Below, piece by piece: positions 6,778-39,189 of a stretch of DNA of 42,809 nt (position 1 is the first letter of the stretch; the number at the start of each line of letters is the position of its first letter). This stretch comes from Rhodoferax sp. OV413 (GTDB taxonomy: Bacteria > Pseudomonadota > Gammaproteobacteria > Burkholderiales > Burkholderiaceae_C): positions 1 to 42,809 of the forward strand of contig CAMAWD010000054.1 in assembly GCA_945861785.1 (NCBI GenBank), read 5' to 3'. The translations under genes were made by a program, and so were the position numbers. The notes beneath the pieces were generated by a model that did no database searches, was not told where the DNA came from, and saw only the letters and a list, made by a program, of their open reading frames with translations.

Positions 6778-6883
6778 GGTTTCGCGGGTGGATGTTGCAA
6801 GGCCTGCATCCCGGGCGAGGCAGAACTTGCCGCCAGTGGATGACACGGCGTAGACTGCTTGCTTTGCGTTGCAGGAGTACGCG

Positions 6884-18821: not shown

Positions 18822-19859
18822 TTATTGCCGCAACTGGGCAGCGTTCACAGCGCTGCTGGCACGCAACCCGGCACTGAGCGCCGGCAACCCGGCGGCACGC
18901 TGCCAATAAGTGGCGGCCCACGCGCGGGCCTGCGCGGCTTGCGCCTCGAAACCCGCCGGCTGCAGCATTGGTTGCACCGGGCCGGCGTCGAGTTCGCCCC
19001 CGTGGACGCCGGGGCGCCACAGCATCGGCAACATGTCGTAGACCGGTGTGGGAACCAGAATCGGGCGGCTCACGTCGTCGACAAAAAAAGACAGGTTGCC
19101 GAAGTGCATGTCGGTGTTGCCGATGTACTGCCCGAACAGGTAGGCGCTGGCAATGCTGCGCACTTGCGAGTTGGTCAGCATGCCCTGTGTGCACAGGCTC
19201 TCGGCGCTTGCCACCCAGTGGCGACGCGCACCCTGCACGAACGCGTCGTGCAAGGCCGATGCGGCGACCACATGGCGTTTGCCGGTTGCGCCGATCCTGT
19301 CAAAACGAAGCGACAGCAGGTAAGTGCGCCGCGGCGTGTGCACCAGCGTCGTCTGCGCGCTTGCGACGCCGTGCTCCCGCAGCACCTCCAGGGCCAGATG
19401 TTCCAGATGCAGCAGATCGTGCCAGCGCTCGCCGAACGGCGTGCCGCGCGGCGGGGTGAACTTGACGATGACCGGCATGCCATCGACCCGGGCAATGAAC
19501 TTGGGCTGTTCGCCTCCCGCAGACGAGCCCGCAGGCAACGCGTCCGAAGCGCGCTCGGCCAGGCGATCGAATGCAACTCCGTCATTGGCTGCGAGCGTGT
19601 CGTGGGATCCGGTCTGCAGGTTGGTCGCCCCCAGCGAAAACGCGCCAGGCGGGTCCGACAGGTGGTTTGCGGCCATGTACAGCGTCTGCAGCAGGCTCCA
19701 GTGCTCGGGGTCAGGCGAGAAATCCGGCCGCAAGCGGGCGAATTGCCGGCCGAGAAATCCCTGGGCTTGCAACGGCGACAACCACCAGGGCAGCGCCGCA
19801 TCTGCAAGCCATTGCTGTTGCCGCGGCCCGCGGACGTGCACCCTGTTGCCATGGAGCAT
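18822..19859 (-). CDS. HipA/YjjJ-type kinase toxin, probably N-terminally truncated
   Basis: A 345-residue HipA-fold protein, serine/threonine kinases acting as toxins. It matches the YjjJ subgroup through LPWWLSPLQAQGFLGRQF at 24-40. Kinase features are SSAGGEQPK (112-120, the Gly-rich loop), the ATP-site Lys in VIVKFT (K133), RFDRIG, the catalytic IGNTDMHFGNLSFF (D250, N255) and VYDMLPM (D275). YjjJ-type proteins are about 440 residues, so roughly 90-100 N-terminal residues, including a winged-helix part, are missing. In-frame codons upstream run only about 17 further to a TAG and do not supply it. No HipB-like antitoxin gene is adjacent. It may be a remnant or a short orphan kinase. Confidence 0.75.
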   Translation of the reverse strand: MLHGNRVHVRGPRQQQWLADAALPWWLSPLQAQGFLGRQFARLRPDFSPDPEHWSLLQTLYMAANHLSDPPGAFSLGATNLQTGSHDTLAANDGVAFDRLAERASDALPAGSSAGGEQPKFIARVDGMPVIVKFTPPRGTPFGERWHDLLHLEHLALEVLREHGVASAQTTLVHTPRRTYLLSLRFDRIGATGKRHVVAASALHDAFVQGARRHWVASAESLCTQGMLTNSQVRSIASAYLFGQYIGNTDMHFGNLSFFVDDVSRPILVPTPVYDMLPMLWRPGVHGGELDAGPVQPMLQPAGFEAQAAQARAWAATYWQRAAGLPALSAGLRASSAVNAAQLRQ

Positions 19860-19920: not shown

Positions 19921-19989
19921 CTTGGTCACCAGCCCACCATGCGCGGGGCCTTGGTGGTGGCCTTTGAAGGTCTGCTTTTCGCAGCAGAT
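19921..19989 (-). pseudogene. Fragment of a LivK-type substrate-binding protein gene
   Basis: The minus strand reads ICCEKQTFKGHHQGPAHGG over about 23 codons. The intact receptor at 32369-33535 ends with IFYEKQTFKGNHQGPEFVE, so this is a small piece of the C-terminal region of a Peripla_BP_6 receptor gene. The nucleotide similarity to 32443-32487 is about 80% by eye. Flanking codons do not continue the match. It lies just upstream of the truncated HipA gene and supports a history of recombination here. Confidence 0.65.
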
Positions 19990-20030
19990 CCGAAGCGGGC
20001 AGCGCGGGTGCGGGTGTGACGGGGGGGCGA

Positions 20031-21281: not shown

Positions 21282-21392
21282 GTGCTGTTCGGGGCCAACA
21301 TCGAGGGGCCGCTCTCGCTCGACGAGATCGCTGCGCTGGTGGGCTTGTCGCGGCGCCAGATCGAGCGCCTGTTCAAGCGCTGCGTGGGGCAG
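21282..21392 (+). pseudogene. GlxA-type AraC regulator fragment (HTH only)
   Basis: The frame reads VLFGANIEGPLSLDEIAALV then GLSRRQIERLFKRCVGQ. This is the first helix-turn-helix of GlxA-family AraC regulators, normally preceded by an amidotransferase-like domain of about 190 residues and followed by a second HTH. Neither flank is present: the frame runs into unrelated sequence and stops at 21431. It is a dead fragment. Confidence 0.75.
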
Positions 21393-21477
21393 GCGCGCCG
21401 GGCGCATGCGTTGTCGGTGGGGGCGGCATAGTCCGGGCCGCAGTGCCCGCGCGGGCGCTCGTCAGCCGCGCGCGCAA

Positions 21478-21582: not shown

Positions 21583-21609
21583 AATCTGCCGATGCATCCC
21601 GCCGTCGCC

Positions 21610-21624
21610 CGACCAAAGTGGTCG
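21610..21624. promoter_or_regulatory. Palindrome CGACCA-AAG-TGGTCG
   Basis: A perfect 6-bp inverted repeat with a 3-bp centre, about 155 bp before the lipocalin-like gene and just upstream of a TACTAT hexamer (21638-21643). Its ACCA/TGGT half-sites recall GntR/FCD-type operators. No GntR gene is in the window, so the regulator would be elsewhere. Confidence 0.35.
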
Positions 21625-21766
21625 AATTGGCGAGTGGTACTATCAAACGAAATCGTTGGAGTGTGTTTGTCGACACCGCCGGGTGTCTCCCGCAAAGACG
21701 GGTTTCTTCCAATGGTGGCACCCCAATATGTTCAACTGTCAAGTCAATAATCTTGGCGTCACCCTT

Positions 21767-22195
21767 ATGCACGCACCTGAAGTTGATCCCGTTGGCACCT
21801 GGGATCTGGTCGATTCTCTGGTCGAGAACTCCGTTACCGGCGAGGTCACACGCCCACGTGGCATACACCCCGGCGGGCGGCTGATCTACACCGCAGGGGG
21901 CGGCATGTGTGCCGTGGTAACGGCAGAAGGCAGGAAGCCGCTCGAAGGTAACGACGACATCGTCAAAGCGAGTGCTGATCTTTTTCACAGCGTCAATGCA
22001 TACGCCGGCACCTACACGGTGGCGGGCAGCACCGTCACGCATCAGGTTGAAGTCGCTTCCAACCCGGCGTGGATTGGAACGGCGCAGTTGAGGTACGTAT
22101 CAATGGAAGGTGACCGGCTGACCATTGACGCAAACATCACCCTGGCGGGTGCCGCATTGACCAAGGTCCGCTTGGTGTGGCGCCGGATCGGCTGA
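21767..22195 (+). CDS. Lipocalin-like domain protein
   Basis: A 142-residue protein of the lipocalin-like family (PF13924 type). The opening VGTWDLVDSLVENSVTGEV followed by HPGGRLIYTAGGGMCAVV matches the family's strand pattern of a TWxLV start and an L-I-Y-T-x-x-G hairpin. The end TLAGAALTKVRLVWRR also fits. There is no signal peptide, so it is probably cytoplasmic. The ATG at 21767 is taken because the domain starts right after it; an in-frame ATG at 21728 is possible, and neither has a strong ribosome site. It lies 52 bp upstream of the mandelate racemase homologue and is likely cotranscribed. Family members often sit in catabolic clusters, with ligand unknown. Confidence 0.75.
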   Translation: MHAPEVDPVGTWDLVDSLVENSVTGEVTRPRGIHPGGRLIYTAGGGMCAVVTAEGRKPLEGNDDIVKASADLFHSVNAYAGTYTVAGSTVTHQVEVASNPAWIGTAQLRYVSMEGDRLTIDANITLAGAALTKVRLVWRRIG

Positions 22196-22247
22196 TCCCT
22201 GCCCTCCATCGTCACGAGCATTGCATACTTTCGCAGAGGTGATATCG

Positions 22248-23330
22248 ATGTCAGGAATTCGCATTCGCAAGCTGCATGTTCGGCCTCTGAATTTCAAGCT
22301 GGACCGACCTTTGGAAACCGCAGGCGGTCAGATCGGGTCGTGGCCAGTGGTCATACTGGACATGCACACAGATGCCGGGATCGTTGGTGTAAGTTTTGTT
22401 GGCTGCTTCATGCCCATGTTGGTGAAGCCTGTCGTGTCGCTGCTTCAGGACATGGGCGCCATGATCGAGGGTGACGAATTGAGCCCAGTGAGCATCGAAG
22501 CGAAATTGCGAGCCAAGAGTCGACTCATCGGAACCCAGGGACCGATTGCGATGGCGGTGGCGATGATTGAGATCAGCGCTTGGGATGCCCTGTCAAAGGC
22601 CTCCAATCTGCCCCTGTGTCGGCTGCTTGGTGCCAAGCCACGGGCACACCCCGTCTACCTGACTATTCCGGCCATGACTCCATCACGAGTTCGGGAGCTC
22701 GCACAGAGGGCGCTTGAACTTCAATATGCGGGGGTGAAGTGCAAACTTGGGCATCCAGACCCGTCCAAGGATCTGGCGCTCATCGACGCGGTGCGAAGCG
22801 TTTGTGGCCCCAACTTTCCAATCATGGTTGATTACAACCAATCGCTTTCAGTACCAGATGCGATACAACGAATCCAAAGACTCGATGATATGGGGCTCGG
22901 CTGGATCGAGGAGCCCACAGACGCCATGAACGTGGAGGGCCATGTCAAAATTGCGAATGCCGTCAAGACGCCTGTTTCACTTGGCGAAAATTGGCACAAT
23001 CCGATGGAAGCCGCACGCGATATTCTTAGTGGGGCAGCGGATGTAGTCATGCCCGACGTACTCACAGTGGGTGGGATTTCTGCCTGGCTGAAATGCGCCG
23101 CCTTGGCTGAAATTCGGGGCATCCCCATATCTGCCCATAGTTACCCGGAAATCTCCACACAACTTTTGCCTCTGGCCGCAACGCCGCACTGGCTGGAGCA
23201 TGCGGAAATATTTGACAGTCTGTTTTTGAATCCGGTTCGGCCTGTCAATGGAAACCTGATTGCAACCGAGGACCCTGGGTGTGGTGTTGCATGGGATGAA
23301 AAGGTCGTGGCACGATCGGCTTGGACCTGA
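22248..23330 (+). CDS. Mandelate racemase homologue (enolase superfamily)
   Basis: A 360-residue enolase-superfamily enzyme of the mandelate racemase group, which abstracts a proton alpha to a carboxylate via an Mg-bound enolate. The residues align without shift on the well-studied Pseudomonas putida enzyme: K164 and K166 (KCK), metal ligands D195, E221 and E247, the D270/H297 dyad, and E317 (HWLEHAE). The surrounding text also matches (MVDYNQSL, WIEEPT, GENWH). K164-K166 plus H297 gives the two opposite-face bases needed for racemisation, so racemase activity on mandelate or a similar 2-hydroxy acid is well supported; epimerase or dehydratase activity remains possible. AGAGGTG precedes the ATG by six bases. 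No mandelate dehydrogenase is nearby. Confidence 0.85.
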   Translation: MSGIRIRKLHVRPLNFKLDRPLETAGGQIGSWPVVILDMHTDAGIVGVSFVGCFMPMLVKPVVSLLQDMGAMIEGDELSPVSIEAKLRAKSRLIGTQGPIAMAVAMIEISAWDALSKASNLPLCRLLGAKPRAHPVYLTIPAMTPSRVRELAQRALELQYAGVKCKLGHPDPSKDLALIDAVRSVCGPNFPIMVDYNQSLSVPDAIQRIQRLDDMGLGWIEEPTDAMNVEGHVKIANAVKTPVSLGENWHNPMEAARDILSGAADVVMPDVLTVGGISAWLKCAALAEIRGIPISAHSYPEISTQLLPLAATPHWLEHAEIFDSLFLNPVRPVNGNLIATEDPGCGVAWDEKVVARSAWT

Positions 23331-23337
23331 CCCTTCG

Positions 23338-23928
23338 CTATTTCATGAATGAGAAGCCAATTGATTCCAGTTTCTCACTTACTGATTCGCCAAACTCCGC
23401 CTTGAACTTTTTGCTTTCTTCTGGCGAAAATGCAATGTCGTTGTAGTCAGCCTCTGCGGCACCGGTAATGAGTACCAGCAGCAAGGCTGTTTCGCTGCTG
23501 ATGTTGGTGAAGTCTCGGCAGACTGCTTTGGGCACGCGGATGAGGTCATAGGGCTCAAGCACCGTCTCGTGTTCCCCGTGATCGCCCCAACGGATCAAGA
23601 ATCTCCCCTTCAAGCAAAAAAAATGCTCCACCGTGTGGAAGTGGGCGTGCAGCATCGGCTTATCACCAGGGGGGCACTCGGCAATGATGACGGACAAATT
23701 TTCACCCGTCACGATAGCTGGTTTGGCGGACATGGGCCCCGCCTTCTGCGATGGTGCCATGAGCGTATAGAGGGTCCTCGCCGCGATCGATGTGTAGGCC
23801 TCTGTCGGGATGCCTGAGTCCTTTGCGTAGTAACTGCTCTGCGGACGAAGGTCCTTGAACCGCACTGTCAGTTTTTCCATCTCCTCCGGACTAATGGTTT
23901 GGGTCGGTGGCAATTCTGGTTTGGCCAT
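23338..23928 (-). CDS. Cupin domain protein
   Basis: A 196-residue single-cupin protein. The first cupin motif LHAHFHTVEHFFCLKG carries likely metal ligands H94, H96 (or H98) and E101. The second part PYDLIRVPKAVCRDFTN has Arg or Asn where many cupins carry the last His, so the metal site may be incomplete. About 60 N-terminal residues precede the barrel and a charged helical tail follows. It lies downstream of the TauD-type dioxygenase on the same strand (110 bp gap) and tail to tail with the racemase gene, only 7 bp apart. It may be a small dioxygenase, isomerase or ligand sensor of the island pathway. Confidence 0.8.
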   Translation of the reverse strand: MAKPELPPTQTISPEEMEKLTVRFKDLRPQSSYYAKDSGIPTEAYTSIAARTLYTLMAPSQKAGPMSAKPAIVTGENLSVIIAECPPGDKPMLHAHFHTVEHFFCLKGRFLIRWGDHGEHETVLEPYDLIRVPKAVCRDFTNISSETALLLVLITGAAEADYNDIAFSPEESKKFKAEFGESVSEKLESIGFSFMK

Positions 23929-24038
23929 GATGGGTCTCCTCTACTTTTGATGTTGATTGAACGCTTGCAGCGGTGAGTTGTTGGCACCCACTATCGCACC
24001 GACCCCATTTGCACCAAGAGGAAAGTTCGACACTGCAC

Positions 24039-24902
24039 TTACACGGGGACTGTTTCGTGCACCGCACACTGCCGCATTTTTCGGGGATGAGTCCCATCAT
24101 AGGGCGTTGCCCTGTGCATTGTTCTGCGATCATCCCAAAGTACAAAATCGTCCGGTTGCCAAGAGTGGGCATACGTGAATCTCGATTGCGTCGAATATTC
24201 AATCAGCTCCGCTATCAGTGCGCGCCCTCTCTCAACCTCCCACCCGTCAACATGCGATGCATGTGAAGCCAAGTACAGTGACTTCAACCCATCCTGTGGA
24301 TGAACTCTCACCAACGGATGCGTTACCGGCGGATGATCACGGAGCGTCGCCGGGTCGAACTTGTCCGCAGTGAATCCGACTTGTTCTCGCGATCGGATCA
24401 CACTGTGAATGACTTGAAGCCCTTCCAGTTCTGCCTGTCTCGACGCCGGCAATGAAGCCCAAGCAGACCGTGTGTCTGCAAATTCGGTAGGCGGAGGACT
24501 CGGAGGAAGTTCTCTCGCGAGCAGGCCAGTCAGGCGGATCGGCAGCCGCAAAAATGAGCCGTCTGTATGCCACAGGCGATTGGCCAGGTTGTACCATCCC
24601 TGGACGCTGTCCTTGCTGATCGGGTTGCCTGAATCATCAACAGTGCCAACATCGATGAGGGTCGCACTCGCGCCTGCAACTTCTTTGAACAAAGGAGTTC
24701 TGCCAGGACCAAATTGCCGAATGAATGCGTCCTGCTGTTCCGCATCCATGGGTTGTTTTCGAAAGACCAACACCCCATAGGTTGCAATCGCAGATTCAAT
24801 TTGGCCCACATCATCCGCTGCCAGAGGGCGCCTCAGGTCAAAGCCCGCGGCCTCTGCAACAAACGTGTTGCCCAACCTTCGATACGCGTGCTTGATTGTC
24901 AT
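24039..24902 (-). CDS. TauD/TfdA family Fe(II)/2-oxoglutarate dioxygenase
   Basis: A 287-residue dioxygenase that hydroxylates its substrate using 2-oxoglutarate and O2; relatives cleave taurine or 2,4-D. The iron triad is visible: H112 and D114 in WHTDGSF and H263 in TMHRATPYDG. The 2-oxoglutarate-binding Arg follows in HPRKMR (R274-R277 region). Length and layout match TfdA/TauD. It is transcribed away from the ABC importer and is followed by the cupin gene. Ether or alkyl cleavage releasing an acid for the racemase pathway is a reasonable guess, but only a guess. Confidence 0.88.
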   Translation of the reverse strand: MTIKHAYRRLGNTFVAEAAGFDLRRPLAADDVGQIESAIATYGVLVFRKQPMDAEQQDAFIRQFGPGRTPLFKEVAGASATLIDVGTVDDSGNPISKDSVQGWYNLANRLWHTDGSFLRLPIRLTGLLARELPPSPPPTEFADTRSAWASLPASRQAELEGLQVIHSVIRSREQVGFTADKFDPATLRDHPPVTHPLVRVHPQDGLKSLYLASHASHVDGWEVERGRALIAELIEYSTQSRFTYAHSWQPDDFVLWDDRRTMHRATPYDGTHPRKMRQCAVHETVPV

Positions 24903-25382
24903 GCTAGGTCCGACCCAAATTGGTTATTGTGAAGACGAAAGACTCACCAAGGGACCTTTTCCGCGCATCAAATCGCACACAGCCAATAGCCCTCGCGACT
25001 TGCTGGGTCAACACGTTCGGCCTCTTTCTCAAGAGGCATCGCAGTGCCGCCAAGGACTTGTTGAATGTGAACCGCGCCCTGGTCACATCGCCAAGCGCGA
25101 GGCCCTTTGAACGAGAGACCGTCTTCTGTCATGCCCAAAAACATTCTAGGCGGCGGGTAACTCAAAGGTCACCTAGGGTCTACCCCTAGAGGCGTGGGAG
25201 GGTGTTGACATGATTAGATTAGATCACATACTATCGTCGCAATTCGAGGAACCATGCGCGCACATGCGGGCATGGATTGTGTCGAAGTTGAATGCAAGCC
25301 AGCCTGTCAGGCCTCCTGTTGAGCGTCTGTCAGGCCCGCCGCATTCTGCGTCCAAAAAATGAATTTTCAGGAGACAAATGCA
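24903..25382. other. Divergent control region of the island
   Basis: The 480 bp between the dioxygenase and receptor genes carry the promoter for the importer operon (25173-25234, separate entry). A 65-codon minus-strand frame (24968-25165) has no recognisable family and no good ribosome site, so I do not call it. The dioxygenase promoter must lie near 24905-24965, but its boxes are not clear. Confidence 0.5.
25173..25234 (+). promoter_or_regulatory. Promoter of the LivKGFHM operon with upstream palindrome
   Basis: TTGACA at 25205-25210 and TACTAT at 25229-25234 are separated by 18 bp, a near-consensus sigma70 promoter. Fifteen bp upstream of the -35 lies CTAGGGTCTACCCCTAG (25173-25189), an inverted repeat with 6-bp arms, at a typical activator position. 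The spacer itself contains TGAT and ATCA arms (25211-25226), which could bind a repressor. Together they suggest substrate-controlled expression of the importer. Confidence 0.7.
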
Positions 25383-26549
25383 ATGTTGAAATTCAACCGC
25401 CGAGTCGTGTCACGTGTTGCAGCGAGTGCGGCCGTGCTTGCTGCCATGGCCACCAGCATTGCGGCTCTTGCGCAATCGCCTGCGGGGCCCATCAAGGTTG
25501 GAGGTCTGTCATTCCTTACCGGTAAGTTTGGTTCGTACGGGCAGGATATTGGCAAAGGAATGCGCCTTGCAATCAAACAGATCAATGATGGTGGCGGACT
25601 GCTGGGAGGCGCAAAGCTCGAACTGGACCTTCAAGACACAGTGTCCGATTCAGCGCAGGCGGTTAGTCTGCTGCGCCGCTTTGCCGGGTCAGCCGATGTA
25701 GTTGGTGTTGTTGGCCCGGTGGGGACTCCCGACTTTCTCGCCATACTTCCGCTGTCCGGCCAGTTGGGCATACCAATTATCAGTTTGGGATCTCAGAAGG
25801 AGATGGCAAGCACTGAATTCTCTGACTGGATTGTCCGTGTGAATTTGCCAGTCACTCCCGCCCTCATCACTGCTGTTTTGGCGCAGACCAAGAAGGGCCG
25901 AAAGCTGGAGACGGTTGCATTGATCCGCGACCGTGCAAATGACTCGGGCCAGGCCGAGGCGAAGGCTGTTCGTCAGGCAATTGAAGCAGGCGCTGGTGTC
26001 AAGCTTGTGGCGGATGAGGCATATGCCGCAGGCGACAAGGACTTTGGGGCAGTCCTGGACAAAATGCTTCGCGAGAAGCCGGACGCGATCTGGATTGCCG
26101 GCGTAACCAACGAGGTCTCGCTGTTGCTGCAGCAAGCGAGGGCCAGGGGCTTCAAGGGCTCTTTCCTGGGCGGCGCGGGGATGAATGATCCAAAAATTGC
26201 GCAGCTGGCGAAGGAAGCCGCCGCGGGGATAGTGACATTTTTGCCGGTTAATTTTGAGTCAAACGCGCCTCAAGTGAAGAAATTTATTGCGGGCTATCGT
26301 GAGGCCCATGGGCAGGGGCCGATCCCTGTCTACGCCGTGTATGGCTACGACGGAGTGATGATTTTGGCGAACGCAATCAGTACAGCAAAAAGCACGGACC
26401 GAAAGGTGGTCATGCAGGCACTGGGCAACACAAAGGGGTTTGTCACGGTTTCGGGAAGCTACACCTATGCCGGCAAGGGGGACAACGTGGCTCCATTCCC
26501 CTTCCTGATGGAAATGACCGCTGAAGGAAACTTCAAGCCACTCAATTAG
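25383..26549 (+). CDS. ABC transporter substrate-binding protein (LivK/Peripla_BP_6)
   Basis: A 388-residue periplasmic receptor of the branched-chain-amino-acid type. A signal peptide covers about residues 1-31 (RRVVSRVAASAAVLAAMATS...ALAQ). The mature protein opens with IKVGGLSFLTGKFGSYG and contains the two-lobe pattern (DTVSDSAQAVSLLRRF, GVVGPVGTPDFLAI, VYAVYGYDGVMILANA). The start at 25383 is supported by AGGAGA eight bases upstream; the ATG at 25378 leads to a stop after three codons. It is the first gene of a five-component importer followed by a hydrolase. Homologues bind amino acids, aromatic acids or amides; the racemase and dioxygenase next to it suggest an organic acid. Confidence 0.9.
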   Translation: MLKFNRRVVSRVAASAAVLAAMATSIAALAQSPAGPIKVGGLSFLTGKFGSYGQDIGKGMRLAIKQINDGGGLLGGAKLELDLQDTVSDSAQAVSLLRRFAGSADVVGVVGPVGTPDFLAILPLSGQLGIPIISLGSQKEMASTEFSDWIVRVNLPVTPALITAVLAQTKKGRKLETVALIRDRANDSGQAEAKAVRQAIEAGAGVKLVADEAYAAGDKDFGAVLDKMLREKPDAIWIAGVTNEVSLLLQQARARGFKGSFLGGAGMNDPKIAQLAKEAAAGIVTFLPVNFESNAPQVKKFIAGYREAHGQGPIPVYAVYGYDGVMILANAISTAKSTDRKVVMQALGNTKGFVTVSGSYTYAGKGDNVAPFPFLMEMTAEGNFKPLN

Positions 26550-26564
26550 CTTTGCGGCTCCAGT

Positions 26565-27293
26565 ATGCATGGGGTGTTGGCTCTTAGAGAAATCAGCAAG
26601 AGCTTTGGCGGAAATCAAGCGCTTCAACGGCTTAGCCTGGATGTCCATGTGGGGCAGATTCAAGGTTTGATTGGCCCGAATGGCGCGGGGAAGACAACTG
26701 TCCTCAATATAGCGACGGGAGTCTATAAGCCGGATGCAGGGCAGGTGTTGGTGAATGGTCACGACGTAACCAGTCTGAGGCCGTATGAGAGGTCGCGTTT
26801 AGGGCTTTCCCGGACATTCCAAGGAGGCAGACCCTTTGGCCAACTGACAGCCCGCGAAAACATCCAGATTGCGATCGAACAGCGCCAGAAGATTGAACGC
26901 GCAGGTAGATTTGAGCCGTCTCCAGTTCAAAATGCCGACGCCCTGCTTGATGAAATAGGACTGCTGGGCGAGGCAGAGCTATTGGCGAAGTCTTTGCCCT
27001 ACGGAAAGCAAAAGCAACTTGAGATCGCAAGAGCAATTGCCTATGCCACCTCCGTCATGCTCCTCGACGAGCCAACCTCTGGCCTGAGCCTGGAAGAAAT
27101 TGATCTGGTTTTATCTGTTGTTGCCAAGTACCGAAGCAAACTGGCCATCCTGCTCGTTGAGCACAATATGGATGTGGTGATGGCAGTCTGCAATCAAATC
27201 GTCGTGATCGACGCCGGATGCTGGATTGCCGCCGGCGAGCCCAAGGAGATTCAGGTGAACCCGCAGGTTGTCAACGCGTACCTGGGCACCTGA
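26565..27293 (+). CDS. LivG-type ABC transporter ATP-binding protein
   Basis: A 242-residue ATPase of the LivG class. The Walker A motif GPNGAGKTT is at about 37-45, the Q-loop region is in LSRTFQGGRPF, the signature is the variant LPYGKQKQLEIARA, and Walker B is VMLLDEPTSGLS. The H-loop His is in LLVEHNMDVV. It begins 15 bp after the receptor gene and is followed 14 bp later by the LivF gene; both ATPases form the cytoplasmic heterodimer that drives import. Confidence 0.92.
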   Translation: MHGVLALREISKSFGGNQALQRLSLDVHVGQIQGLIGPNGAGKTTVLNIATGVYKPDAGQVLVNGHDVTSLRPYERSRLGLSRTFQGGRPFGQLTARENIQIAIEQRQKIERAGRFEPSPVQNADALLDEIGLLGEAELLAKSLPYGKQKQLEIARAIAYATSVMLLDEPTSGLSLEEIDLVLSVVAKYRSKLAILLVEHNMDVVMAVCNQIVVIDAGCWIAAGEPKEIQVNPQVVNAYLGT

Positions 27294-27307
27294 CGGTCCT
27301 CCTGGTT

Positions 27308-28045
27308 ATGCTTTCTATTCAAAAATTGAGCTGCTCCTACGGACAGGCGCCTGTACTGCACGATATTTCAATCGAAGTTGCGGCAGGAAAGGTCAGCGTC
27401 ATCCTTGGGCCGAACGGTGCCGGAAAATCGACGTTGCTCAAGGCCATCATGGGCCACATGCCCGTCGTTTCCTGCCAACGCATCTCGGTGGCCGGAGGAA
27501 GATCACTCGATCGCTTGCCCATGCACGCAGTCGCGCGAATGGGTGTCGCTTACGTGCCGGAAGGCAGAGGCATTCTCAATTCACTGACGGTATTGGAAAA
27601 CCTGCAGCTTGGTTTGTCACTGCTGCGCATAAGAAGCCCAAAGGAAGGCGCTGAGGCGGCTCTGGACAAAGTGCTCGATAGTTTTCCAATGTTGAAGGAT
27701 CGGACACATGTTGCTGCGGGTCTCCTGAGCGGCGGGCAGCAACAGATGCTGGCGATTGCGCGGGCTTTGATTTCCAACCCTTCGGTTCTGCTGCTGGATG
27801 AGCCTTCCCTCGGGCTGGCACCGCTAATCCGGCTTGATATCGCGAGGCTGCTGCGGGAGATCGCTGATTCGAAGAACGTTGCGGTCCTGCTTGCGGAGCA
27901 GGACATTACGCTCGCACAGCGCTGCGCTGACCAGGCTTACGTACTCCGTCGCGGCAGGATAGTCGCCGAGATGGCCGGCGGCGAGTTGATAGATCGCGAG
28001 CGCCTCAGGCAGTTGTATCTTGGCTCCGCGCCTGCCGCCAGCTAA
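27308..28045 (+). CDS. LivF-type ABC transporter ATP-binding protein
   Basis: A 245-residue ATPase of the LivF class. Walker A is GPNGAGKST at about 34-42, the VPEGRGI segment is typical of LivF, the signature is LSGGQQQMLAIARA, Walker B is VLLLDEPSLGLAP, and the His switch is replaced by a Gln-rich LLAEQDITLAQRC, as is usual in LivF. The ATG at 27308 is used because the preceding in-frame sequence belongs to the LivG gene in another frame. It ends 20 bp before the permease gene. Confidence 0.92.
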   Translation: MLSIQKLSCSYGQAPVLHDISIEVAAGKVSVILGPNGAGKSTLLKAIMGHMPVVSCQRISVAGGRSLDRLPMHAVARMGVAYVPEGRGILNSLTVLENLQLGLSLLRIRSPKEGAEAALDKVLDSFPMLKDRTHVAAGLLSGGQQQMLAIARALISNPSVLLLDEPSLGLAPLIRLDIARLLREIADSKNVAVLLAEQDITLAQRCADQAYVLRRGRIVAEMAGGELIDRERLRQLYLGSAPAAS

Positions 28046-28065
28046 GTATTAAGGGCGATTTGAAG

Positions 28066-28959
28066 ATGGAATTTTTTATTCAGTTGATTGTCGGAGGTCT
28101 CTCAGTCGGTGGCACCTATGCCCTGGTCGCGCTAGGCTTTGTGCTCATATTTGGTGTGGCGAATGTCCTGAACATCGCACACGCGCAGTCCATCATGCTG
28201 GCACCATTTCTGATATTCGTCTTGATGGAGCAATGCAAGGTATCGGCTGCGGTGGCGCTGCCACTGGCTATTGCCTTGACGGTTCTGATTGCGTTCATTG
28301 TTTACTATGGTGCGATCCGGCCATTTCTCGTGGCTGGGCGAGAGTCGGGCTATCTGGCACCATTCATCGGTAGCTTTGGCGCGTCGTTGCTCATCGAGAA
28401 TTTGCTCGGGAAGATCTTCGGGACGGATTCGCAATCATTTCCCATCGCGATTCCACGAGAAGTCTGGACCATTCATTCAATCGTCCTTGTGCCCATGCAG
28501 GTCGTCAGTATGGCTTGCGTCTTCGTCGCGTCGCTGACCCTTGCCTGGATTGTCAAGCGAACCCAGATTGGGCGTGCGATGCGCGCCGTTGCCGAAAATC
28601 CTGTTGTTGCCGAGTCGCAGGGTATTTCGGCCAGATTGACGATCATCGTCACCATATCCATTGCCACTGTACTGGGCGCGATTTCCGGGATCCTTTTTTC
28701 TGCTGGAAACAATGCCGTCTCACCGTTCATGGGCATGGAGTATGGCCTGAAAGGCCTGGTGGTCATGATTATTGGCGGCGTTACCAGTCTCGCCGGCGCA
28801 GTCGTTGCTGGCCTGCTTTTGGGTGTCGCCGAGTCGCTGGCGGTTGGTTACCTGTCGTCGAGTTTCAGCATGGTGATAAGTTTCGGTCTGCTTCTGATTA
28901 TTTTGCTGTTCCGCCCGACGGGACTATTTGCCTCTGCGTCCCGGGAGTCACGTCCATGA
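28066..28959 (+). CDS. LivH-type ABC transporter permease
   Basis: A 297-residue membrane protein of the LivH class with about eight transmembrane segments. The family start IVGGLSVGGTYALVALGFVL and NVLNIAHAQSIMLAPF are intact, and the cytoplasmic EAA-like loop contains RTQIGRAMRAVAENPVVAE, which docks on the ATPases. The ATG at 28066 follows AAGGGCGA; the TTG two codons earlier is less likely. Its stop overlaps the start of livM (ATGA), so the two permeases are translationally coupled. Confidence 0.92.
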   Translation: MEFFIQLIVGGLSVGGTYALVALGFVLIFGVANVLNIAHAQSIMLAPFLIFVLMEQCKVSAAVALPLAIALTVLIAFIVYYGAIRPFLVAGRESGYLAPFIGSFGASLLIENLLGKIFGTDSQSFPIAIPREVWTIHSIVLVPMQVVSMACVFVASLTLAWIVKRTQIGRAMRAVAENPVVAESQGISARLTIIVTISIATVLGAISGILFSAGNNAVSPFMGMEYGLKGLVVMIIGGVTSLAGAVVAGLLLGVAESLAVGYLSSSFSMVISFGLLLIILLFRPTGLFASASRESRP

Positions 28960-29804
28960 ATGGGTACCTTGCGTCCATAGTTATTCCCGTTTTGATCGAC
29001 GCGATTGCCGTGTTGGGACTCTATGTGATTGTGAGCAGCGGACGATTGTCCATCGGGCATGCCGCCTTTTTTGGCATCGGCTGCTACGTCAGCGCACTGT
29101 TGTCCGCCCAGTTGAAGTACCCGGTGTGGCTGGCGATCTCGGCTGGTGTGGTCAGCGCGGCGATGGCTGGACTTCTGTTCGCCTTGCTGGCAGAGCGATT
29201 AAGCCACTGGTTCTTTGCCATTGCGACATTGGCCTTCTCGGTCATGCTTTCTGGAATTGTTTCTAGCGTAGAAAGCCTGGGGGGGGCGACAGGAATTTAT
29301 GGCGTCCCATTGGCCGTTGACTTGCCAGTGGTCGCAGTCTGCCTCGTGGCAGTCCTGGTACTCGTGTATTTCATCGATGGCTCATCGTTCGGGCGGTCAT
29401 TGCGTGCAGTTCGCGATTCGGAAATTGCCGCCGAGGCAGTTGGCATCAATCCCAGATTTGCACACGTGGGGGCATTTGCCATCGGGACAGCGGTGGCGGG
29501 TTTGGCTGGGGGACTATGGGCACATTACCTTGGAGTCGTCAAGCCAGTTGACATGTCGCTTGACCGATCCCTGTTCTTCTTGATCTACTTGGCCGTGGGT
29601 GGCGTCGAGCATTGGGCCGGCGCGCTTCTGGGCACAATCTCATTGGGGATATTGCCAGAGGTTCTGAGGTTTTCACGCGAGTATCGGCTGGTATTCTTCG
29701 GCCTGCTATTGACGAGCTTCATGGTACTTCGGCCCAGTGGATTTTTGTCGCGGGAGACCGTCTCTTGGTTGATCAAGAAAGTGCGCCTTGGCCAACGCGC
29801 TTAG
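28956..29804 (+). CDS. LivM-type ABC transporter permease
   Basis: A 282-residue permease of the LivM class. Marker segments are SSGRLSIGHAAFFGIGCY in the second helix pair and the ATPase-contact loop SFGRSLRAVRDSEIAAEAVG near residue 150. The C-terminus ends FMVLRPSGFLSRE, close to the usual family ending on a Leu/Phe-x-P-x-G motif. It is shorter than the LivM of the second cluster in this window (358 residues), lacking the extra N- and C-terminal extensions. It starts inside the last codons of livH. Confidence 0.9.
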   Translation: MNGYLASIVIPVLIDAIAVLGLYVIVSSGRLSIGHAAFFGIGCYVSALLSAQLKYPVWLAISAGVVSAAMAGLLFALLAERLSHWFFAIATLAFSVMLSGIVSSVESLGGATGIYGVPLAVDLPVVAVCLVAVLVLVYFIDGSSFGRSLRAVRDSEIAAEAVGINPRFAHVGAFAIGTAVAGLAGGLWAHYLGVVKPVDMSLDRSLFFLIYLAVGGVEHWAGALLGTISLGILPEVLRFSREYRLVFFGLLLTSFMVLRPSGFLSRETVSWLIKKVRLGQRA

Positions 29805-29897
29805 CTCTTGAGTCTGCTGCGGCTCGTAATTTGACCCGACCCAGTGCAAGGAGCCGACCGAGGTCTCACATTCGGTTCAACAAGCGAGAGAGCTCCC

Positions 29898-30746
29898 ATG
29901 AATGACCAGCTTCCCTTTCCCCCATTGCCGGAGCCGCTCTCTGAATTGATGCGGCGTTACGAAGTGCGGGACTACGTGATCGATGAGCGAGTGTGGAGGG
30001 TAGTTGACACCGCAAGCACAGCCGGGACCGATCTTTGCCCCTTGGTGATGCTGCCGGGCGCACTCGGTTCGCACTTGGTTTTCTATCGCCAATGGAAGCA
30101 CCTTGATCTTTACCAGCCGGCCCGTCGAGTCATTTTGGTGGACTATCCGGGGTCTTCGGATTTGACTCGTATGGCCGCTGCGTTCGAGGAGTTGATGCGT
30201 CTGCTTAAAGTCGAGCGTGCGATATTTGCGGGTTCCTCGCTCGGCGCGTGCTGGCTGCAGGTTTTTACGTCTTCGATCGCGCCATCGATGGTTCAGCGCA
30301 CAGAGCACCTGTTGATTGGCAACGCCTTTGTCGACGCCGAACCACTCCAGTTGAACCCGCTTTTTGTGCGGTCTCTTGTCAACGACAAACCGGCCGATGA
30401 ACTGAAGAAGAAATTTTCGGGATTCATCGAGGCCATGCCAGATGGCGAATTGCGCTCAGCCCAAATTTGCTTTGCGCGAGTCCAGACGGCAGAGCAGTTG
30501 TCTGGTCGACTTCGGATGGTTGCCAATGTTGGCGCGATTCCACTGAGCAAAGTGGCGCAGGAACGGATGACGGTATTAACGTGCGATGACGATGGCGTCA
30601 CCACAAAAGACATCGGCAACCTGGTTTGCGCTGCCTATCCGAAGGCGCGACACGTTTCATTTGAAAGTGGCGGGCACTATCCGCATGTCAACCAGGCCGC
30701 GCGTTACAACGAGTTGCTTGGTGAAATTCTGGCTTTGCCAATTTGA
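29898..30746 (+). CDS. Alpha/beta hydrolase, maspardin-like
   Basis: A 282-residue alpha/beta-hydrolase-fold protein. The oxyanion region reads LVMLPGALGSHLVFYRQW, and the nucleophile elbow is AGSSLGACWLQ (Ser114). A His is present near the end in SGGHYPHVNQ. The unusual CPLVMLPG start and the YPGSSDLTRMAAAFEELM pattern recall the maspardin group, whose catalytic status is uncertain. It starts 93 bp after livM and is probably the last gene of the importer operon. It may open a CoA, ester or lactone intermediate of the island pathway. Substrate unknown. Confidence 0.75.
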   Translation: MNDQLPFPPLPEPLSELMRRYEVRDYVIDERVWRVVDTASTAGTDLCPLVMLPGALGSHLVFYRQWKHLDLYQPARRVILVDYPGSSDLTRMAAAFEELMRLLKVERAIFAGSSLGACWLQVFTSSIAPSMVQRTEHLLIGNAFVDAEPLQLNPLFVRSLVNDKPADELKKKFSGFIEAMPDGELRSAQICFARVQTAEQLSGRLRMVANVGAIPLSKVAQERMTVLTCDDDGVTTKDIGNLVCAAYPKARHVSFESGGHYPHVNQAARYNELLGEILALPI

Positions 30747-31019
30747 CGTATTGAGGGAGTGGGAAAAGCCGACCACTGCTGTTCCCGCCATCTGGCGCAA
30801 TTGTGCGCAGGAGATTGTGCGCGGGTCGGTGCGGTTTGGCTGAACGCCACAGCCCGGCGCGCCACTTGACCGGCGCTCCGCGGAGTGACTTGTGCAGCAG
30901 GGCCGCCCGCGCAGTTGCCGACCATGCCGCCGCCCAAGATCTTGCCTTGGCCCAGATTGCGCTTGAAGTCAGCAGAAAATCAATTGATAATTCAGTTTTA
31001 CACATTTACTCAAATCACC
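30747..31019. other. Right edge of the low-GC island
   Basis: No gene is supported here. Base composition returns to GC-rich near 30.8 kb. A short frame ending QEIVRGSVRFG (to 30843) resembles the fragment at the left edge of the island (21478-21582). A TTGATA (30984-30989) with TACTCA 17 bp later (31007-31012) may be the promoter of the following toxin-antitoxin pair. Confidence 0.4.
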
Positions 31020-31295
31020 ATGACGGATGCAGCGCCAGAACCCACCCAGCGCCTGAATGTTGACCTGCCGAAGTCACAGTATTTCGCGCTCAAATCATAT
31101 GCGCTGCACAACGAGACCACGGTGTCCCAACTGGTGCGTGATTCTTTGCGCGGCATTGTGGAGTACGACACCTGGTTCAAAGCCAAGGTGCGAGCCGCTC
31201 AGGCTGACCAGCGTCCTGCCATTGAGCCCGCAGAATGGAAAGCCATCCGCGCTCAAAAACTGGCGCAACGTAAAGCGCTGGCTGACAAGACATGA
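31020..31295 (+). CDS. Ribbon-helix-helix antitoxin of a ParE/RelE module
   Basis: A 91-residue antitoxin. The N-terminal DNA-binding unit is RLNVDLPKSQYFALKSYALHN then ETTVSQLVRDSLRG, a clear ribbon-helix-helix. A charged helix (PAEWKAIRAQKLAQRKALA) at the C-terminus would wrap the toxin. Its stop overlaps the toxin start (ATGA), which couples their translation as usual for type II modules. Family is CopG/ParD-like; a precise subgroup is not claimed. Confidence 0.82.
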   Translation: MTDAAPEPTQRLNVDLPKSQYFALKSYALHNETTVSQLVRDSLRGIVEYDTWFKAKVRAAQADQRPAIEPAEWKAIRAQKLAQRKALADKT

Positions 31296-31564
31296 AGGTG
31301 CTGCGCAAGCCGCAGTACTGGGAGAGCCTGCAAGCCATCGAAGACTACATTGCCCATGACAATCCCCTCGCTGCGAGCGATCTGTGGTTGGGCATTGACG
31401 AGCAAGTCAGTCTGCTTGCCGACCCGAATTTTCCCCGCAGACCTGGCCGCGTAGCAGGCACGCTCGAGCTGGTGGTGCATCCCAATTACGTTGTGATTTT
31501 GGAGCAATCACCTCATACCGTGACGGTGCTTGAGGTACTGCATGTGGCGATGAAGTACCCGTGA
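31292..31564 (+). CDS. ParE/RelE-superfamily toxin
   Basis: A 90-residue toxin-fold protein. An N-terminal helix (YWESLQAIEDYIAHDNPLAAS) leads into the strands PRRPGRVAGTLELVV, NYVVILEQ and VTVLEVLHVAM, the characteristic ParE order with an Arg-containing turn and a final hydrophobic strand. ParE toxins poison DNA gyrase and RelE toxins cleave mRNA; sequence alone does not decide which. The pair sits between the low-GC island and the second ABC operon, a common stabilising position beside horizontally acquired DNA. Confidence 0.82.
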   Translation: MKVLRKPQYWESLQAIEDYIAHDNPLAASDLWLGIDEQVSLLADPNFPRRPGRVAGTLELVVHPNYVVILEQSPHTVTVLEVLHVAMKYP

Positions 31565-31590
31565 GGTGTTGATGCCGACGTCCCCCGCAG

Positions 31591-32364
31591 CTACTGCGTA
31601 ACCACCCCGCCATCCACGATCAGCATCTCGCCGTTCACAAAAGCCGAAGCCGCGCCCAGCAGGAACAGGATCGGCCCGGCCATGTCCTGCGGTTGTGCCA
31701 TGCGTTTCATCGGCACGCGTTTGGCGTAGACCGCTTCGGGGATGCCGTCGAATATCTTCTCGCGCCCGGTGCCGCCGGTCAGGAAGGCGGTGTTGGTAAG
31801 GCCGGGCGCCACCGCGTTCACACGCACGCGCGGTGCGTTCTCGCGCGCCAGGCCCTTGACCATGCCCACGATGCCGGCCTTGGCCATGCCGTAGTGGGTG
31901 TAGTTCTTCACCACGTCCACCGCCATGGTGGACGCCACGCTGACCAGTGATCCCTAGCCGGATTTGTGCAGCAATGGCAATGCCGCCCGAGCGCACAGGA
32001 AATGGCAGCGCAGGTTGCCGGCGATGGTCTCGTCGAAAACCTCCACGGGCAGTTCGCTGATCGGCAGGAAGCCCTTGAAGAACCCGGCCAGGTTGACGAA
32101 ACCGTCCAGGTGGGGCCAGCGCGCGGCCAACACGGCAAACGCGGTCTCGACACTGCTGGCATCGCTGCCGTCCATGGCCAGGGCCAGAGCTTCCGGCGGG
32201 GGCGGGTTCTGCGCCAGCGAGGCCGGCAGGTCGAGCACGGCCACCAACACACCGGTGTCGAGCAGGGCGCGCACCAGCACGCGCCCCATACCCCCGCAGC
32301 CGCCGACCACCGCCACCCGGGACCCGGGCGCGGGGCCCAGGCGGGCGGGATCGAAATCGCTCAT
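31591..32364 (-). pseudogene. Short-chain dehydrogenase/reductase, interrupted by TAG
   Basis: A 257-codon SDR gene. The N-terminal Rossmann motif VAVVGGCGGMGRVLV is intact, and so are the NLAGFFKG region and the C-terminal half with the catalytic Ser in SVAST and the YxxxK motif in HYGMAKAG. Codon 137 (31954-31956, minus strand) is TAG, within KSG-stop-GSLVSV. Family members often have Gln or a similar residue here, so CAG to TAG is a one-base explanation. The stop precedes the catalytic Ser and Tyr, so the truncated product cannot be active. The rest of the frame is undamaged, implying a very recent loss, a sequencing error or readthrough. It is the last gene of the seven-gene operon, 4 bp after livK. 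Confidence 0.85.
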
Positions 32365-32368
32365 CCGA

Positions 32369-33535
32369 TCACTGCATTGGCTTGGTCAGCGAGGTCCAGG
32401 CGCCGCCCTTGACCTGGTCGACCTCGACGAACTCGGGACCCTGGTGGTTGCCCTTGAAAGTCTGCTTTTCGTAAAAGATCGGGTGCTCGAAGCTGTTGGT
32501 CTGCAGGTACTTGACCACCTTGTCGGCCGTCAGGTCCTTGCCCGCACCCTGCACGGCCTTGACGAACATGTCGGTGTAGGCGTAAGCGAGCAGCGCGTTC
32601 TCGTCCGGCTCGTTGGTGTACTTCTTCTTGTAGTCGGCAAACCACTTCTTGACGGCGTCCGGTCCGTTGGTTGGCGTGAAGAGTTTCCACACGCCCACGC
32701 CGTACAGGCCTTCGACGGTGTCCTTGCCGAGTTGCAGCACGATGCCGGTGCGGCCCGGGTTGCCGGTGATCACCTTCACATTGGTCCAGCCGAGCTTCTT
32801 GACTTCGGCCATGATGCCGATGGTCTCGCGCGTCACGGTGGCGATCACGATCAGGTCGACGTCGGCGGCTTTCATGCGCGCCACCTGGGAGGAGAAGTCG
32901 ATGTCGCCGGCCTTGTAACCGGCCTCGGCGGCATAGGCCATGCCCTTGGCGGTGAGCGCCTTCTTCACACCTTCGCCCATCAGCGAACCCAGCGGGCCCT
33001 CCTGGTAGATGTAGCCGACCTTCTTGGGTTTGTAGGTGTCGAGCATCCAGGTGACACCGGTGTTCATGATGGTGTCGTAGTTGGGGGTGCTTGTGAACAG
33101 CAGCTGGTTGTCGGCCGCGCTCTTGCGGATGATCGAGGATGCGCCCCAGGGTGCGAAATAGATCACGCCTTCGTCCACCGCGCGTTTGACGACTGCCGCA
33201 TTGGTGGCGGAGCCGAACGGGTTGACGATGGCGAAAACTTCGTCCTTGCGGATCAGCTTGTCGATCGCGCGCACGGCCATCTGCGGCTGGCTGCCGTTGT
33301 CTTCCACGACCATGCGGAACTTGCGGCCGTTCACGCCGCCGGCGTCGTTGGCCTCGTCCAGGCGCATCTGCATGCCGTTGCGCAGGCTGGGCATGCCGGC
33401 TGCGACCGGGCCGGACAGGTCGAGGTGCGTGCCCAGCACGATCTCGGTTGCGCTGACGCCGGCCGCTTGCGCGCCACCGGCAACACCGGCGGCGAGCAGC
33501 GCCGCAAGCAGCGTGTTCTTGAGTCTCTTCAACAT
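32369..33535 (-). CDS. ABC transporter substrate-binding protein (LivK/Peripla_BP_6)
   Basis: A 388-residue periplasmic receptor. The signal peptide is LKRLKNTLLAALLAAGVAGG with cleavage after AQA. Mature blocks include EIVLGTHLDLSGPVAAG, AIVNPFGSATNAAVVK, FTSTPNYDTIM, NALLAYAYTDMFVKAV and, at the end, YEKQTFKGNHQGPEFVEVD. GAAGGAG lies just before the ATG at 33535. It belongs to the livHMGF/acyl-CoA synthetase operon. The association with an acyl-CoA synthetase suggests a carboxylic acid ligand rather than a branched-chain amino acid. The C-terminal motif recurs as a fragment at 19921-19989. Confidence 0.92.
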   Translation of the reverse strand: MLKRLKNTLLAALLAAGVAGGAQAAGVSATEIVLGTHLDLSGPVAAGMPSLRNGMQMRLDEANDAGGVNGRKFRMVVEDNGSQPQMAVRAIDKLIRKDEVFAIVNPFGSATNAAVVKRAVDEGVIYFAPWGASSIIRKSAADNQLLFTSTPNYDTIMNTGVTWMLDTYKPKKVGYIYQEGPLGSLMGEGVKKALTAKGMAYAAEAGYKAGDIDFSSQVARMKAADVDLIVIATVTRETIGIMAEVKKLGWTNVKVITGNPGRTGIVLQLGKDTVEGLYGVGVWKLFTPTNGPDAVKKWFADYKKKYTNEPDENALLAYAYTDMFVKAVQGAGKDLTADKVVKYLQTNSFEHPIFYEKQTFKGNHQGPEFVEVDQVKGGAWTSLTKPMQ

Positions 33536-33581
33536 GGCAGTCTCCTTCAAAAAATGGGCCGGTGGCCCGATGCAAAAATGT

Positions 33582-35426: not shown

Positions 35427-35427
35427 G

Positions 35428-36213
<786 letters not shown>

Positions 36214-36214
36214 C

Positions 36215-36973
36215 TCATCCCCCAAGGTAGGCCGCGATAACGGCCGGGTTGCCCTGCACCTCTTGCGGCGTGCCGAGCGCCAGCACCTGCCCCATGTTCA
36301 TGCACAACACGCGGTCGGCGGCTTCGGACACCAGCGACATGTCGTGCTCGACCATGATCACGGTGATGCCAAGGTCATTCTGGATGTCGTCGATCCAGAA
36401 GGCGAGTTCGCGTGTTTCCTCGGGGTTCAGTCCGGACGCGGGTTCGTCGAGCAGCAGCAGCCGGGGCTGTGTGCACAAGGCGCGCGCCAGTTCCACCACC
36501 TTGCGCACGCCGTAGGGCAGGCCGGCCACCGGGCTGTTGCGGTGGGGCATGAGGTCGAGCAGGTCGATCACGTCCTCCACATGCGCGCGCGATTGCGCCT
36601 CGGCGGCGCGTACGCCGGGTGTCCACAACCACTGCGCGGCGAAGTTGCCATGGTCGAAGCGGTGGCGCCCGAGCAGCAGGTTGTCCAACACCGTGCCACC
36701 TTCGAACAGCTCGATGTTCTGAAAGGTGCGCGCGATGCCGCTGTGCACCACCTTGTGCCGCGGCAGCCGCGTGATGTCCTGGCCTTCGAATTCGACGCTG
36801 CCGGCGGTAGGGTCGAAGACGCGGGTGATCACGTTGAGCATGGAGGTCTTGCCCGCGCCGTTGGGCCCGATGATGGCGAACACCTCACCTTGTTCGACCT
36901 CGAAACTCACGTTGCCGACGGCCAACACGCCACCGAAACGCAGCGAGACATCCTTGGCCGCGAACACGCTCAT
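36215..36973 (-). CDS. LivG-type ABC transporter ATP-binding protein
   Basis: A 252-residue LivG-class ATPase with Walker A GPNGAGKTS, Q-loop in IARTFQNIELF, signature-type LPYGVRKVVELARA (a variant of LSGGQ that is common in LivG), Walker B LLLLDEPASGLNPEE and the switch His in VMVEHDMSLV. Its ATG at 36973 overlaps the stop of livM (ATGA). It pairs with the LivF protein encoded next. Confidence 0.92.
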   Translation of the reverse strand: MSVFAAKDVSLRFGGVLAVGNVSFEVEQGEVFAIIGPNGAGKTSMLNVITRVFDPTAGSVEFEGQDITRLPRHKVVHSGIARTFQNIELFEGGTVLDNLLLGRHRFDHGNFAAQWLWTPGVRAAEAQSRAHVEDVIDLLDLMPHRNSPVAGLPYGVRKVVELARALCTQPRLLLLDEPASGLNPEETRELAFWIDDIQNDLGITVIMVEHDMSLVSEAADRVLCMNMGQVLALGTPQEVQGNPAVIAAYLGG

Positions 36974-38046: not shown

Positions 38047-38063
38047 GGCGGTGAAGGCCGGGT

Positions 38064-38948: not shown

Positions 38949-39189
38949 GCAGCCGGGTCCCGGGCGGATTTGCGTGGCGACGCAAGTGTCACATCAGTCT
39001 CCTTTGGGTGGCCAGTCTGCCGCTTGTTTTGGCCGGCCGGCCAGCTGCTGGTTTCGTCTGGTTCTTGATGATAGTCAAACCCGTGGAGCAAGTCTAGTTG
39101 AGAAAGTGAAAATGCCATGAATCTAGGGTAAACACGGACGGCGTCGGGGTGTCTGTGTCGCCCAGGTGTCTTTGCGCCGCATTGGGGGA
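38949..39189. other. Divergent control region, livH operon / KefC-type antiporter
   Basis: No gene is visible in these 241 bp. The element CTAGGGTAAAC at 39123-39133 matches one arm of the palindrome in front of the island importer (25173-25189) and a CCCTAGGG site at 42737-42744. A TATGAT hexamer at 39209-39214, just inside the annotated start region of the antiporter, could be its -10. Promoter boxes for livH are not clear. Confidence 0.4.

Follow-up and report, generated by a model that had tools for sequence, protein, structure and literature searches.

Gene content and organization of the island

The window analysed here is a whole stretch of 42,809 nucleotides from Rhodoferax sp. OV413 (contig CAMAWD010000054.1 of assembly GCA_945861785.1), and within it lies an island of low guanine-plus-cytosine (GC) content with a run of ten genes, including those for a mandelate-racemase-like enzyme, a TauD/TfdA-family Fe(II)/2-oxoglutarate dioxygenase and a Liv importer. 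Pfam analysis of the island returned Lipocalin_5, MR_MLE_N/C, Cupin_2, TauD, Peripla_BP_6, two ABC_tran, two BPD_transp_2 and Abhydrolase_6 domains, bearing out the gene set named in a first-pass annotation of the window apart from its 'maspardin-like' label for the hydrolase. Judged by strand and spacing, the genes fall into three units. In the first, on the plus strand (21,767–23,330), a lipocalin-like protein of 142 amino acids (PF13924; 21767–22195) is encoded 52 bp upstream of the racemase (22248–23330), the latter assigned by Pfam, PDB alignment and tree rows. The second, on the minus strand (24,902–23,338), consists of the genes for the dioxygenase (24039–24902; Pfam and PDB) and a single-domain cupin (23338–23928; Pfam), 111 bp apart; the racemase and cupin genes converge, with 8 bp between them. 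The third, on the plus strand (25,383–30,746), encodes a LivK-type substrate-binding protein (25383–26549; Pfam and PDB rows), LivG-type (26565–27293) and LivF-type (27308–28045) ATPases, LivH-type (28066–28959) and LivM-type (28956–29804) permeases, all four assigned by Pfam, and an alpha/beta hydrolase (29898–30746; Pfam) in whose sequence we read a G-S-S-L-G nucleophile motif.

The divergent region between the second and third units (24,903–25,382) contains back-to-back promoter-like sites, three in number against a mean of 0.4 in shuffled sequences. They include a minus-strand site for the dioxygenase–cupin unit (25143–25172) and a plus-strand site, TTGACA-18-TACTAT, for the importer unit (25205–25234), both recognised by consensus match only. 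Between 21,400 and 23,960 there was no such site (0 versus 1.3 in shuffles). The first-pass annotation had arranged all of the genes around one divergent control region; this holds for the dioxygenase–cupin and importer units, and a single region for all genes was rejected, as the lipocalin–racemase unit lies apart as a separate, convergent unit. ORFs (open reading frames) of 40–89 amino acids are also present in the divergent region. Apart from an AraC-type fragment described below, no dedicated regulator was recognised among the ORFs of at least 150 amino acids, and there were no Rfam matches. A tblastn search of the window (E up to 1e-3) with the FMN (flavin mononucleotide) hydroxy-acid dehydrogenase and benzoylformate decarboxylase of Agrobacterium K84 detected no homologue of either, in agreement with the earlier statement that neither activity is encoded here.

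A racemase clade with an altered pocket and a linked dioxygenase

The best PDB match of the racemase was the mandelate racemase of Pseudomonas putida (E 2.1e-83), and in alignment to 1mdr it keeps Lys164, Lys166, Asp195, Asn197, Glu221, Glu247, Asp270, His297 and Glu317. In a 23-row tree it falls into a clade of four (support 91/100) with two racemases of reservoir metagenome-assembled genomes (MAGs), L091 (58% identical) and L090 (56%), and a paralogue in its own genome, L026 (47%). The same nine catalytic residues are kept in all four, Lys166 being replaced by arginine in several outgroup rows. Two further relatives, L027 (33%, own genome) and L014 (genome G336, a 4-kb locus), were left out of the tree and of the 16-locus count given below. 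The own genome as a whole (G000) has 28 racemase matches at E≤1e-3, a large number of mandelate-racemase (MR)-type enzymes for one genome.

The KxK and H-D motifs are shared by acid-sugar dehydratases belonging to the same subgroup, and such enzymes (e.g. 2pp0) do match the island protein. An alternative is that this protein dehydrates or epimerises some other acid, with the dioxygenase acting on a different carbon or in an unrelated step, so that the two enzymes would have no C-H bond in common; the altered pocket described next, which speaks against plain mandelate as the substrate, and the second MR-type enzyme, MR2, found beside the racemase in L026 and L091 would both suit this explanation. 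We nevertheless regard it as unlikely, since mandelate racemase is matched much more strongly than the first named dehydratase (2.1e-83 versus 1.9e-39) and both Glu317 and Asn197 are kept.

The clade is marked by its pocket, in which we count positions 139 and 298. The combination Trp32/Gly52/Phe54/Thr139/Ser298 was present in all four members and in none of 17 other mandelate-racemase-like rows (a comparison made without the two MR2 rows), which have Phe52 and Tyr54, serine or proline at 139, and leucine, isoleucine or phenylalanine at 298. In mandelate racemase, Phe52 and Tyr54 are part of the S-pocket and Val22, Val26 and Val29 form the flap, according to one report (PMC9835602). The window enzyme, with Gly52 and Phe54, thus lacks the Phe52/Tyr54 pair of the aryl pocket. 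Replacement of Phe52 by glycine should open the 50s-loop side of the pocket, which would make a substrate other than mandelate likely for the clade. The pocket residues of L014 agreed with those of the 17 other rows, and the more distant L027 has Tyr52, Ile54, Thr139 and Phe298, so Thr139 alone is not diagnostic.

A TauD/TfdA dioxygenase gene was adjacent to the racemase gene or one gene away in all four clade loci. In L091, a dioxygenase gene (56% identical to that of the window) is divergently adjacent to the racemase, followed by MR2, a different MR-type gene whose copy there is 82% identical to the L026 copy, and then by a frame-broken cupin homologue. In L090, where the racemase lies at a contig end so that one side is unseen, a dioxygenase of another type is encoded immediately upstream. 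The gene order in L026 (own-genome contig C11, 7103–11323) is TauD–MR2–MR1–TauD. Genes that we read from their ORFs as coenzyme-A-transferase-like lie near L026, coenzyme-A enzymes near L091 and a carboxylase-type gene near L090.

The linkage was compared with 16 loci of 7 to 25 kb each, made up of eight of the nine other family matches (L030–L037) and eight of 243 plasmid records (L039, L040 and L097–L102). Three dioxygenase queries detected no TauD-type gene in any of the 16 (E≤1e-5), nor at L014 (4 kb) or L027. The difference between 4/4 and 0/16 gave a one-sided Fisher probability of 2e-4, a value that ignores relatedness and uneven flank lengths. An FMN alpha-hydroxy-acid enzyme was instead found in five of the 16 (L039, L040, L097, L099 and L100), four of which also had a benzoylformate decarboxylase, L039 being the source of both queries; these five loci and the P. 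putida mandelate racemase formed one tree group (99/99). Neither gene was detected in the other 11 comparison loci or in the four clade loci. The racemase groups thus differ in their oxidising partner, which is an FMN enzyme in the P. putida group and a TauD-type enzyme in the clade loci. No description of a mandelate-racemase/TauD pair appeared in the titles and abstract openings of open-access literature among the matches listed.

Both genes are rare in close form. Racemase matches at E≤1e-80 were present in ten of 399 genomes of the family, a count that takes in the own genome; elsewhere the best match was 40% identical. In the order only the own genome matched at 1e-95 (1/399). For the dioxygenase the counts were 3/399 in the family at 1e-60, own included, and 1/389 in the order at 1e-75, again the own; these draws have some genomes in common, and for many genomes scoring covered just a part of the first-look candidates. 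A contig scan with the racemase alone matched five stretches and no relative. When species genomes were scanned with an alignment of two racemase rows, two of the 45 stretches matched were relatives, L090 and L091.

The dioxygenase and comparison with known systems

The dioxygenase (Pfam TauD, 5.5e-60) keeps the HxD...H triad (His112, Asp114 and His263) and the 2-oxoglutarate-binding Arg274. Its PDB relatives were, best first, the 2,4-D (2,4-dichlorophenoxyacetic acid) dioxygenase 5bke (E 5.8e-59), 5j92 and (R)-phenoxypropionate dioxygenases. It resembles the TfdA and aryloxyalkanoate dioxygenases (5bke, RdpA) in family, facial triad and 2-oxoglutarate-binding arginine; it differs in being only about 41% identical to 5bke and in its linkage to a racemase. 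The type-b dioxygenases of L026 and L090 are only 27% identical to it, which suggests that two dioxygenase kinds serve one racemase clade. A relative in L025 of the own genome (52% identical) lies beside SMP-30-like, amidohydrolase and Liv genes with no clade racemase in the stretch, and another in L028 (50%), also without a clade racemase, adjoins genes read as YcaO and ATP-grasp. Function therefore cannot be read off from dioxygenase identity alone. A viral-contig scan with the dioxygenase alignment matched 17 stretches, none of them a relative.

These PDB relatives, together with plasmid tfdA genes about 40% identical to the dioxygenase, raise the question of a xenobiotic module for chiral phenoxypropionate herbicides, in which the racemase would make one enantiospecific dioxygenase enough. 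We consider this quite improbable: identity to the herbicide enzymes is only about 40%, no chlorocatechol or phenol genes were found among the ten island proteins scanned, two of the related loci come from MAGs, and the substrate of the racemase would have to be an ether, not an alcohol.

Among known systems, the mandelate operon of the Agrobacterium K84 plasmid pAtK84c has a racemase, an FMN mandelate dehydrogenase and a benzoylformate decarboxylase. The island racemase shares its family and catalytic residues with the operon enzyme, and a stereochemical step would likewise precede oxidation; unlike the operon, however, the island has a TfdA-type dioxygenase in place of the FMN dehydrogenase, no decarboxylase and a remodelled pocket. 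A Variovorax boronicumulans plasmid locus (L097) contains a Liv importer, a racemase-like enzyme, an alpha-hydroxy-acid oxidase and an indolepyruvate oxidoreductase, and thus, like the island, joins importer, racemase and oxidising enzyme in one gene run, although its oxidiser is annotated as an alpha-hydroxy-acid oxidase and its racemase groups with that of P. putida. L097 also has an indoleacetamide hydrolase and is perhaps an indole-lactate or indole-acetate module. The MAG loci L091 and L090 share with the island the related racemase and a TauD-type gene alongside it, but have no Liv importer, lipocalin or hydrolase homologue in the fetched stretches.

Cupin, hydrolase and importer

Residues His94, His96, Glu101, Arg138 and Asn142 of the cupin are invariant in 14 aligned sequences. 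Of the usual cupin motif, His94, His96 and Glu101 are kept, whereas Arg138 takes the place of the customary third histidine. At 1e-15 the cupin matched 17 of 399 genomes of the order, own included; its best relative (67%, G540) lies beside LysR, NmrA-like and GMC genes, on a contig with no racemase or dioxygenase homologues. The hydrolase had no PDB match at E≤0.001 and its single-sequence structure model was uninformative (predicted local distance difference test score 37), so that with Abhydrolase_6 as the only support the 'maspardin-like' label was dropped as unconfirmed.

Four loci with a hydrolase homologue were analysed, comprising all three matching plasmid records and L080. A cupin gene was found just upstream of the hydrolase in L103, L104 and L080 and none was found in L105. 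The adjacent cupins belong to a different branch, being 33% (L103) and 25% (L104) identical to the window cupin; that of L080 was unmatched by the window cupin at E≤1e-6 and found only with the L103 and L104 cupins as queries. In the other direction, the hydrolase was present in one (L080) of 13 loci fetched for window-like cupins, which were drawn from ten of the 16 other genomes of the order scan. With the adjacent cupins on another branch and one locus in 13, the cupin–hydrolase pairing is weak evidence for a shared pathway. L104 has a Liv importer about 6 kb further on.

The receptor has Ala273 where, among its five nearest PDB rows, 3td9, 4gnr and 4nqr have aspartate, 4obb asparagine and 3hut serine. 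Position 273 is presumably the site of an acidic residue for the amino group of amino-acid ligands, and Ala273 is at most a hint against such a ligand. Two plasmid relatives of the receptor were found at 1e-20, 30–33% identical. Liv importers also occur near racemases of other clades, in L097, L040 and, about 7 kb off, L031.

Proposed pathway

The reading to which we incline, by a narrow margin of confidence, is that the island is a horizontally acquired catabolic module for import, C2 racemisation and dioxygenase oxidation of one enantiomer. The LivKGFHM importer would bring in a 2-substituted carboxylic acid; the racemase, to judge from its residues, would swap the C2 proton and so interconvert the enantiomers; and the TfdA-type dioxygenase would oxidise one of the two, in the simplest case at that very C2-H. 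With a 2-hydroxy acid the product would be a gem-diol, equivalent to the 2-oxo acid, and the step would stand in for the FMN dehydrogenase found in mandelate operons; with a 2-aryloxy acid the product would be a hemiketal that breaks down to a phenol and a 2-oxo acid. The cupin and the alpha/beta hydrolase may, more doubtfully, process the product. Such a module would probably let the bacterium use both mirror-image forms of one acid. A more specific proposal, advanced tentatively, is that racemase and dioxygenase share one C2-H bond, so that a racemic 2-hydroxy or ether acid becomes a 2-oxo acid by oxygenation rather than dehydrogenation, and that the Trp32/Gly52/Phe54/Thr139/Ser298 racemases are a new isofunctional group. 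That the imported acid is racemised and oxidised had already been suggested in the first-pass annotation; the TauD linkage (4/4 versus 0/16) supports this indirectly.

Several observations weigh against the proposed module. The clade is small (n=4, bootstrap 91), two of its members were picked up by patterns derived from the other pair, and the comparison covers part of the possible loci (8/9 family matches and 8/243 plasmid records). Thr139 is not special in itself, occurring in L027, and dioxygenase relatives at 50–52% identity occur without this racemase. Also counting against the module are the arginine in the cupin motif, the low identity of the hydrolase-adjacent cupins of L103, L104 and L080 to the window cupin, and the asparagine of 4obb and serine of 3hut, which make the receptor residue argument weak. 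Finally, no other locus with the complete gene set was found in the family, order or species-genome scans, and no homologue of the lipocalin, hydrolase, receptor or a Liv subunit was found in the fetched stretches of L026, L090 and L091. The first-pass annotation had offered absence of linkage elsewhere as grounds for refutation; this applies in part, as no linkage of the lipocalin, hydrolase and importer genes was found in these three loci, but the racemase and dioxygenase genes are linked in each. Its statement that no known mandelate operon has this set was true of each locus read. What survives is the core, a racemase–dioxygenase pair that recurs in four loci with a changed racemase pocket.

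Mandelate racemase is a classic model enzyme, coupled in known operons to a flavin dehydrogenase. If the proposed module is real, a sister clade with the catalytic residues kept, the pocket changed and an oxygenase as partner would be a case of natural pathway rewiring, with a signature that can be searched for in sequence and assayed directly.

Composition, borders and origin of the island

Likelihood segmentation and the GC profile delimited the island at 21610–31575 (no strand), with 55.7% GC; on a coarse 50-base grid, 21,600–31,650 had 55.8% GC against 65.0% outside (log-likelihood gain 137). The drop and its left edge agree with the 21.6–30.8 kb estimated by eye in the first-pass annotation, whereas the right edge lies at 31.58 kb rather than 30.8 kb. 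GC content at third codon positions (GC3) was 0.55–0.69 for the ten genes from lipocalin to hydrolase, 0.74–0.89 for those flanking window genes that were measured and 0.70–0.92 (median 0.84) for 25 ORFs of our choosing in L025 and L026, stretches from elsewhere in this genome. The composition break is present at both borders, and the shift in GC and codon usage that had been predicted there was seen.

The low GC and GC3 of all ten genes bear on a further explanation, that the island is a mosaic of two or three catabolic units, the racemase–dioxygenase pair, cupin plus hydrolase, and importer, for different substrates. Parts of the set are found apart in other loci, gene fragments lie at the borders and the racemase is in a separate transcription unit, as a mosaic would predict; set against this are the common composition, the shared strand of cupin and dioxygenase 111 bp apart, the hydrolase at the end of the importer unit and the cupin homologue after the racemase cluster in L091. 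We hold a mosaic to be possible but rather less probable than the single module.

The right flank was strongly matched in five of six other same-genus genomes, the sixth (G399) giving weak matches only. One fetched contig had both flanks, C365 of the same-genus draft genome G261 (L084), in which a match to 18,877–19,856 of the window (70.7%) ends 375 bp before a match to 32,369–36,191 (81.8%), so that 375 bp stand there in place of 12.5 kb in the window, as expected of an empty site in a close relative. The filled stretch, about 19.9–32.4 kb, is wider than the GC island. The racemase (E≤1e-80) and dioxygenase (1e-60) had no match in five same-genus genomes, G399 not being among the draws. The G261 contig additionally matches 6,226–7,050 and 8,324–8,378 and is without most of 7–18.9 kb. 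The region is therefore generally variable, which complicates a simple insertion picture and counts against it. Loss in G261, rather than gain in the host, is still conceivable and is the less favoured explanation, gain being the better reading because of composition. The horizontal gain proposed earlier thus stands as probable, resting on composition (GC and GC3) and on one draft genome of the same genus with a contig that resembles an empty site.

The ORFs listed and scanned included no recognisable integrase or transposase. A 47-bp direct copy (19944–19990, plus strand), 83% identical by sequence comparison to 32,434–32,480, forms with it a pair that brackets the inserted stretch, the right-hand member being the 3' end of the right-flank binding-protein gene. 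On the left, similarity of a HipA-like gene (18822–19859, minus strand) to its G261 homologue ends at 19,856, so its start side looks cut at the insertion border. Next to the island lies a 104-bp plus-strand fragment (21293–21396), matched at 90% identity by C36 of the own genome, which appears by eye, without a family search, to be an AraC-type helix-turn-helix. Within the low-GC segment on the right, Pfam identified a PaaA2-type antitoxin (31020–31295) and a ParE-type toxin (31292–31564), both on the plus strand; the pair (31,020–31,564) is a possible island stabiliser. A short-chain dehydrogenase gene with one in-frame stop (31593–32364, minus strand) stands at the right border with a host-like GC3 of 0.87, and 250 bp of it match C66 of the own genome at 91% identity. 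Directly to the right of the island, a second Liv receptor and transporter set (32369–38950) is matched in same-genus contigs.

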